In this document: piece after piece, positions 47,107 through 49,510 of the stretch | How the letters are laid out: each line of letters opens with the position of its first letter | Numbering within the stretch: the stretch's first letter is position 1 | Assembly: GCF_013408795.1 (NCBI RefSeq) | Contig: NZ_JACCCC010000001.1 | Coordinates: 4,154,001-4,218,000, forward strand | DNA from: Spinactinospora alkalitolerans | GTDB taxonomy: Bacteria; Actinomycetota; Actinomycetes; Streptosporangiales; Streptosporangiaceae | Direction of reading: 5' to 3' | Length of the DNA stretch: 64,000 nucleotides | Made by a program: the position numbers and the translations under genes | Notes under the pieces: generated by a model | What the model was told of the DNA's origin: nothing | Databases searched by the model: none | Seen by the model: the letters and a program-made list of their open reading frames with translations, nothing else

Positions 47107-48354
47107 ATGACCGGTTTTCTGGACGCGATCCTCGACTCCATCGCCGACCTTCCCCCGTTCCTGGTGGCCGGGGTGGTTCTGGTCTTCATGGCGGTGGAGA
47201 CGACGGCGCTGGTCGGCCTGGTCGTTCCGGGGGACCCGGTGGTGGTGCTCGCGGGGGCGAGCGCCACCGACCCCGCCGAGTTCGCGCTGGTCTGCGCCGC
47301 GACGCTGACCGGGGCCCTGGCCGGGGAGAGCGGCGGCTACCTGATCGGCCGCAGGTTCGGCGACCGCTTCCGCCGCGGCCGGATGGGCCGCCTCATCAGC
47401 GAGCGCTACTGGCGGCACGCCGAGGACCTGCTGGCACACTCCGCCGGCCGCTGCACCGCGGGCGGCGGCGCGGCGCCGGTCCCGGGGCTGCGGCGCTGCC
47501 CGGGCTGCGGCCGGCGCGCCGGCGACGGCGGGATGGCGATCGTCGGCTCCCGGTTCGTCTCCGTGGTGCACGCCATCGTGCCGATCCTGGCGGGCACGGT
47601 GGGGATGCCGTTCCGGCGCTTCCTTCTGTGGGCCATGATCGGCAGTTCGGTCTGGACGCTGGTGTTCGCCGGGGCCGGCGCGCTGTTCCGCGCCTCCGTC
47701 GGGCCGGACGGCGGCGGCCTGACGGTCATCACCGGGGTGCTGCTGGTGCTGGGGCTGGGGCTGATGTTCACCGGCGGCGTCCGCGGCGGGGGCCGCGGGG
47801 GCGCGCGGATCCGGCGGCTACCCCAGCAGCGCGGGCAGCGGGTCGCCGAGGAGGATGACGGCGAACGCCCCGATGAGCATGAAGGGGCCGAACGGGATCT
47901 GGGTCTTGCGGGTGGCCCTGCCCAGCAGGATGAGCACGAGCCCGAAGCAGGCGGAGAGCAGGAACGCGGCGAAGGTGCCGGAGACCACGGCGCCGAGCCC
48001 GGTCCAGCCGAGGTACAGCCCGAGGAGCCCCGACAGCTTGACGTCGCCCCAGCCCATGCCGGCCGGGTAGATGAACCACAGCAGCCAGTAGAACGCCGCG
48101 AGGCCGGCCATCCCGATGAGCGCGCCCACCAGGTGCCCGTATCCGTTCCGCGCGGTCAGCGAGGCCAGGCCGACCAGCACCAGCGCCACGGGATAGGCCG
48201 GAAGGACCAGCGGGTTGGGCAGCCGGCGGGTGCGGGCGTCGATGACGGCGAGCAGCACGCCCCAGAGTCCGAAGAAGGCGAACGCGAGCAGTTCGAGCGG
48301 GGACCATTCCGGGCGCAGCAGCCCCAGCAGACCGAGTGCCGCGGCGGCCAGTGA
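47107..48354 (+). CDS. DedA-family membrane protein with run-on C terminus
   Basis: The start is ATG at 47107 ([17 protein letters not shown]). Residues 1-125 and 150-235 look like a DedA/VTT protein: [36 protein letters not shown] and [20 protein letters not shown] are typical, and five or so membrane helices are visible. DedA proteins are implicated in lipid carrier transport. Two things are odd. About 28 residues, including CPGC, are inserted after WRHAEDLLA where homologues have two or three. And no stop codon occurs at the expected end (about 47820): the frame runs 537 bases antisense into the peptidase gene. A frameshift or sequencing indel is possible. Confidence 0.6.
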
Positions 48355-48621
48355 GGCGACCGCGGCGATCGGTGCGCGCACCCGGACCGCGCACGCCGCG
48401 CAGCGCCCGGTGCCGACCAGGCGCCCCGGCAGCGGGGCCCACCGGCGCCAGGCGACCCTGGCGCCGCAGTGCGGGCAGCACGGGGGCGGCGGCCCCGCGT
48501 CGTCGGGTCCGGGCTCGTAGTCGTGGAACAGCGGGACCACGCGCCCGGCGAAGGCGCCGGCCGCGCCGCCGAGGACGGCCAGGACCACGGCGGTGAGGAC
48601 GGCCGCGAGGGAGGGGGGCAT
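47818..48621 (-). CDS. Prepilin peptidase, A24 family
   Basis: A 267-residue polytopic membrane aspartic peptidase/methylase that processes type IV prepilin-like proteins. The catalytic aspartates are in [15 protein letters not shown] and [14 protein letters not shown] (the GxGD motif). An N-terminal cytoplasmic zinc-ribbon-like part has CCPHCGARVAWRRWAP and CAAC. Seven to eight helices follow. No pilin genes are in this window. The start is ATG at 48621. Its 3' portion is fully overlapped by the run-on of the convergent DedA frame. Confidence 0.9.
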   Translation of the reverse strand: MPPSLAAVLTAVVLAVLGGAAGAFAGRVVPLFHDYEPGPDDAGPPPPCCPHCGARVAWRRWAPLPGRLVGTGRCAACAVRVRAPIAAVASLAAAALGLLGLLRPEWSPLELLAFAFFGLWGVLLAVIDARTRRLPNPLVLPAYPVALVLVGLASLTARNGYGHLVGALIGMAGLAAFYWLLWFIYPAGMGWGDVKLSGLLGLYLGWTGLGAVVSGTFAAFLLSACFGLVLILLGRATRKTQIPFGPFMLIGAFAVILLGDPLPALLG

Positions 48622-48728: not shown

Positions 48729-49412
48729 TCACCCCAGGGCCAGGTCGTGCACGCCGGTTCCGGCCAGGGCCGGACGTCCGGGGTCGCCGGGGAGTTCACG
48801 GCCGGTCGCGGCCCTGACCAGGCGCAGCCCGCTGAGCCCGGTGCGCGCCAGCGCCTCCTTGTCGGCCCGCTCGGTCAGGAGCCCCTCCACGACGGCCAGG
48901 GCCTCCGGTGCCGTCCACGGGGCGCGCTCCAGCGCGTCGGCCAGGTCCAGGCCGTGCAGGACGAGCTCGACGACCCGCGTCGCCAGGAAGTCGGTGAGCA
49001 GCATCGCATCGCCGTGCCGGGTCCGCACGACCCGGTTCTCGGGCGCGGCGTCGAGTTGCGGCCGCAGCTCCCGCCAGACCCGTTCGCCCCGCGCGACGAT
49101 CCCGCGCGGGTCGGCGTGGCCCCGCGCAGCCTCCTGCGCGCTGCGTACCCGGTCGTCGTTGACCTCGGAGGAGAACCGGGCGTCCGGGCTGTAGTAGTCG
49201 ACCGCGGACCTCTCCGCGCGCTCCGGGGCCGGCTCGGCCGGCATCACGGCCACCCGGTGCAGCGCGCCGAGGGTGTGCGCGGCCAGCGCCGCCACGTCTC
49301 AGGGCTCGCACCGGGTCGGTCGGCGGAAGTCCGCGGCGCCGAGGGCCGCGAGCCGTTCGAGCAGGATCCCGGTCTCCGCGCTCAGCGCGGACAGTACTGC
49401 GCGACGTCGCAT
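48729..49412 (-). pseudogene. DinB/MDMPI-type protein gene interrupted by an in-frame TGA
   Basis: From ATG 49412 the frame reads MRRRAVLSALSAETGILLER and, after 37 codons, meets TGA at 49301-49299 in the context RCEP-stop-DVAALAAHTLGALHR. Mycothiol-dependent maleylpyruvate isomerase-like (MDMPI/DinB fold) proteins normally have a tryptophan (TGG) exactly there (C-x-x-W-x-V-x-D/A-x-x-A-H). Downstream the frame is open to 48729 and includes FLATRVVELVLHGLDLADAL, typical of the family, so the rest of the protein looks intact at about 227 residues. Either the gene has just been inactivated by one base, or the downstream part is translated from GTG 49295. Confidence 0.75.
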
Positions 49413-49510
49413 GGGCGACAGGCTAGAGGGGCCCCGCCCCGCCCGGTTCGGGGATCCCCGCGGATCGGCCGCCGCGGAGCGCCGCCGGAGCCGCGGCCCC
49501 TCCGGCCCGG

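Follow-up and report, generated by a model that had tools for sequence, protein, structure and literature searches.

In the window, i.e. the whole stretch of 64,000 nucleotides of Spinactinospora alkalitolerans DNA that was analysed, a gene of the MDMPI_N/DinB-fold (TIGR03083-type) family is located on the minus strand at positions 49412 (ATG) to 48729. It comprises 227 codons and a final TGA stop codon (48731-48729). Its codon 38 is also TGA (49301-49299, minus strand), which is the sole internal stop of the frame and lies in the sequence TGC GAG CCC TGA GAC GTG (C-E-P-*-D-V). A preliminary description of this DNA had placed a TGA at these three bases, and this position holds. It had also counted 188 codons downstream; an ORF of 188 amino acids does exist, beginning at GTG 49295 (48729-49295, minus strand), but 189 codons actually follow the TGA. 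According to the ORF list and the modelled helices, this shorter ORF would be the product of re-initiation and would lack residues 1-39 with helix 1.

The third-position G+C content is 0.84 5′ and 0.94 3′ of the stop, and in a whole-gene comparison the frame of the gene had the best codon score among the six frames. The score was modest for the first 37 codons (0.16 bits per codon) and was 0.57 for the post-stop part. Sequence comparison indicates a single gene rather than a pair of neighbours, since the next 29 rows in the ranking of the family search cross the site without a stop.

Promoter and gene neighbourhood

A leaderless-type -10 box (TANNNT) with the sequence TAGCCT was detected 7 nt upstream of ATG 49412 (49420-49425, minus strand). 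Among the genes of the orthologue group, four incomplete loci being omitted, 20 of 33 had such a box 5-9 nt ahead of an in-frame start, and in 17 of these the spacing was exactly 7 nt. When the upstream stretches were shuffled, 200 rounds gave 1.78 on average and never more than 6. The box was missing in 13 of the 33 genes, including that of the sister genome G053 (L002), and is thus common, not universal. Besides the present gene, it is carried, mostly as TAGNNT, by L003-L010, L013, L016, L020, L021, L023, L024, and L026-L030. For Streptomyces lividans, it has been reported that 17% of the transcripts are leaderless, that 93.4% of the leaderless genes have a -10 motif, and that the mean distance from box to start of these genes is 6.3 nt (PMC8079986). 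By analogy with the cited passages, the box pattern is that of leaderless actinobacterial genes (PMC8079986; compare PMC3898074), which argues that ATG 49412 is probably the real start and that the promoter is intact.

All eight proteins of the window that were tested have counterparts in G053 in the same order and orientation, and because of this conserved gene order the intact G053 gene is the true orthologue. The tested proteins span from a presumably aroB-like gene to a presumably kinase-like one. Downstream lies a gene presumably encoding an A24-type prepilin peptidase (47818-48621, minus strand), whose probable start, ATG 48621, was assigned from the sequence and from the similarity to the sister genome, which starts at residue 40 of a longer ORF. 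This gene has its own leaderless-type box, TAGAGT (48634-48629, minus strand; 7 nt spacer to ATG 48621), so a nonsense allele of the upstream gene need not silence it.

Family, fold and putative metal site

Read through the TGA, the frame scored 55.1 bits with PF11716 (MDMPI_N; Pfam cut-off 24.2) and 56.4 bits with TIGR03083 (NCBIfam cut-off 50), in agreement with the DinB/MDMPI-type family proposed in the preliminary description. The 188-aa ORF alone gave no Pfam match, and its TIGR03083 score of 33 bits was under the cut-off of 50. With the TGA read as Trp, a confident structural model was obtained (pLDDT 94.0, pTM 0.92), which has the four-helix-bundle fold of DinB/MDMPI proteins, with helix 1 at residues 3-22 and the next long helix at residues 40-59. 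In a fold search, the best solved match was 2NSF, a mycothiol-dependent maleylpyruvate isomerase (E 7.6e-05, TMq 0.54, 15% identity), followed by 2NSG (E 3.8e-04), the title of which names an H52A mutant, and by YfiT/DinB-like structures with E > 0.001. A sequence search of the PDB with a profile of the relatives yielded no match at E <= 0.001.

Residues H46, E149, and H153 are invariant across the 36 aligned sequences, in which the Trp38 of the first row stands by construction. They are similar, also in their spacing, to the zinc-binding His/Glu/His triad of 2NSF. Both family scores and the best fold match liken the gene to TIGR03083/PF11716 proteins (maleylpyruvate isomerase family mycothiol-dependent enzymes) such as 2NSF, and the putative metal site would be in keeping. 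By sequence and model, the encoded product is an MDMPI_N/DinB-like four-helix-bundle protein, probably a metal-dependent thiol transferase. The difference from other proteins of these families is the codon-38 stop, owing to which the present copy would give no full-length protein without readthrough.

The TGA position in relatives

In a family survey of 200 genomes, of which 170 had a completeness of 90% or more and a contamination of 5% or less, at least 91 had some match and at least 39 (the own genome included) had one at E <= 1e-25; these counts are lower bounds, at most 14 candidates having been scored per genome. The genus was represented in the comparison set by the S. alkalitolerans genome alone. 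Relatives from 29 of the 38 other strong-match genomes and seven loci from named genomes were aligned (36 in total). Codon 38 was covered in 35 of them and was TGG (Trp) in all 35. Among the remaining nine strong matches, eight reached the site and all eight had Trp there, the ninth (G090) being without the N-terminal part. The conserved tryptophan that the preliminary description had expected at the TGA was therefore present in 43 of 43 relatives covering the site, and compared with these intact relatives the stop appears as a derived premature one, as would be expected of a pseudogene by recent nonsense mutation.

Internal TGA codons were marked in three of 115 survey match rows, one of them being the present gene. 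The second, a tblastn piece from G165 (L093), belongs to a distant paralogue with Met at the site and was left out of the relatives; the third, from G041 (L094), belongs to a truncated remnant that falls short of the site. The G041 remnant matches residues of about 57-129 only. In G090 (L115), the N-terminal part is missing up to about residue 50 and the C-terminus is encoded in a different frame. Truncated remnants thus occur in two other genera of the family. A decayed gene in relatives had been named beforehand as the sign of a plain pseudogene; such remnants do occur, but most relatives are intact.

The own genome contains 14 PF11716 matches, i.e. 13 besides the present gene, and 10 of these 13 have Trp at the corresponding place as judged by eye. 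Given the patchy distribution (at least 39 of 200 genomes), the remnants in two genera, and the 13 other MDMPI_N matches of the own genome, the gene looks dispensable or accessory. One of the own-genome MDMPI_N paralogues, L108 (G000:C1:5924140-5924430), carries a frameshift and resembles the intact L104. It was rejected as a repeat of the same TGA event or of recoding, since its TGA lies after the frameshift and Cys, not a stop, occupies the Trp position.

Age of the stop and selection

At 45 columns, conservation among the other aligned sequences is 90% or higher; the present gene departs at one of these, the TGA itself, and the others depart at 0 to 6. Together with the start, the -10 box, and the codon bias, this agrees with the earlier statement that the gene is intact except for the TGA. 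Within a nearer clade of 17, the present gene departs at three of 46 columns (W38, L58P, and G72D) and the others at 0 to 7; L58P and G72D fit drift and ordinary divergence alike. A protein tree was calculated from 33 rows, L031, L032, L036, and L037 being omitted as incomplete and the TGA position being removed. The terminal branch measured 0.29 for the present gene and 0.51 for its intact sister from G053, the median being 0.26. As relaxed evolution is visible neither in the branch nor in the conserved columns, the stop would be either very recent or not real; a sequencing error at this base would leave the gene equally free of further lesions.

In-frame stops in bacterial genes under purifying selection have been reported as widespread (PMC7918605), and for this reason intactness alone is no proof of inactivity. 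The genes of that report share with the present one an in-frame stop inside an otherwise conserved coding sequence. The focus of its cited passages is on stops common to orthologues of at least two species, whereas the present stop was found in one genome only.

Decoding apparatus and assembly quality

A search with RF00005 gave 54 places in the genome, all but the weakest of which were read by ARAGORN. Among the tRNA genes read, there was one tRNA-Trp only, with the anticodon CCA, and none with a UCA anticodon. With its arms assigned by eye, the tRNA-Trp shows an anticodon stem of 5 bp (CCGGT/ACCGG) as well as G9 and G24. Reading of UGA has been linked with tRNA-Trp variants bearing a 4-bp anticodon stem, A9C, or G24A (PMC13092985), and neither these features nor a UCA anticodon, as would mark UGA-to-Trp recoding, were found in this tRNA-Trp. 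No SelA match was obtained in the genome; of the 14 genomes of a control run, one gave SelA above the cut-off. None of five weak tRNA-Sec matches was above the cut-off.

The source contig consists of 6,684,050 bases in one piece, and the genome is 99.12% complete. An internal stop was present in 0 of 142 PF00005 matches (150 of 240 candidates scored) and in 0 of 59 PF13561 matches, so TGA does not serve as a sense codon in general, and the assembly has few false stops. In addition, coding potential was scanned around in-frame stops in 464 kb (7% of the genome), comprising the surroundings of tRNA genes and the analysed stretch, with 2458 stops in total. A looser filter was passed by 70 rows (7 TGA, 1 TAA, and 62 TAG). 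A stricter filter was passed by seven rows, among which the codon-38 TGA was missing because the first 37 codons score low. Nine stretches were inspected by eye (the six other TGA rows, the TAA row, and two TAG rows), and L073:10693 was the only one of them to resemble a gene with an interruption; the remaining 60 TAG rows, probably antisense of real genes, were left uninspected. The assembly is accordingly not rich in false stops, as far as in-frame stops, which the scan covered, are concerned.

Interpretation of the internal TGA

The best reading of these data, which we consider probable, is that an accessory gene has very recently been hit by a nonsense mutation, an ordinary inactivating change and not a new reading of the code. 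It is also the best supported of the four options offered in the preliminary description. A single base change would have converted the conserved Trp38 codon to TGA in the present strain. The leaderless mRNA would begin at or near ATG 49412, and ribosomes would synthesise a 37-residue peptide ending in C-E-P before release, so that presumably no working enzyme is produced. The loss may be tolerated as the gene is accessory, being patchy in the family, decayed elsewhere, and accompanied by many related proteins in the genome, and the stop would be too recent for a second lesion to have followed. Recent single-nonsense pseudogenes have the same characteristics, namely one stop with the rest intact, restriction to one lineage, an accessory gene, and decayed copies elsewhere; no difference from them was seen.

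A base-calling or assembly error, with TGG as the real codon and an intact, functional gene, is rather unlikely. In its favour, the gene shows no departure besides W38 at the 45 conserved columns. Moreover, a TGG codon would put CCAGG on the opposite strand at the site; CCWGG sequences are commonly methylated, and some sequencing platforms are known to make errors there. The domain matches free of internal stops and the complete single-contig assembly argue against an error, as does the scan, in which only two of the seven TGA rows passing the loose filter, the present one included, looked like interrupted genes by eye.

Near-cognate readthrough, in which tRNA-Trp(CCA) misreads UGA at a low rate and yields a little full-length Trp38 protein, appears improbable. 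A proline codon directly before the stop, as found here, may slow termination and was counted in its favour. Background UGA readthrough with a normal tRNA-Trp has been reported in E. coli (PMC13092985). The single tRNA-Trp of S. alkalitolerans is nevertheless without known UGA-reading changes, and a stop in 0 of 43 relatives covering the site gives no sign of its being kept. There is a similarly slim chance that the stop is tolerated as an expression-lowering element, the leaderless mRNA and the Pro-stop context permitting a little Trp38 enzyme, so that the allele would be down-regulated, not dead. Even a leaky allele would be no new kind of thing, since in-frame stops in conserved bacterial genes have been reported as widespread (PMC7918605).

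Even less credible is re-initiation at GTG 49295, two codons past the TGA, to give a functional protein of 188 amino acids. This GTG lies directly 3′ of the stop and in frame, and the putative metal ligands H46, E149, and H153 are all encoded downstream of it. The product would lack not only helix 1 but also the invariant C35 and P37, although the N-terminal part is conserved among the aligned family relatives; it has no Pfam match, and no clear Shine-Dalgarno stretch was seen by eye ahead of GTG 49295. Based on the model, it is unlikely to fold or work like the full protein. For both readthrough and re-initiation, which had been suggested beforehand, positive evidence did not emerge from the tRNA-Trp or from the truncated product, respectively. 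Selenocysteine insertion or a general reassignment of TGA, for which nothing speaks beyond the TGA itself, was rejected with near certainty, as the SelA, tRNA-Sec, anticodon, and tRNA-Trp results and the 201 domain matches (PF00005 and PF13561) without an internal stop are all against it and the aligned residue is Trp, not Cys.

With a recent nonsense allele as the preferred reading, the consequences hardly go further than annotation, in which the locus should carry the label of a probable pseudogene or of a site for resequencing, and not that of recoding. It would show clearly what a gene looks like after a single lesion. Moreover, an accessory MDMPI-like gene has decayed more than once in one, apparently actinobacterial, family. 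As a separate observation from the scan, a CPBP-type membrane protease-like gene, recognised by eye at L073:10424-11050 (minus strand), shows an apparent interruption by an in-frame TGA.
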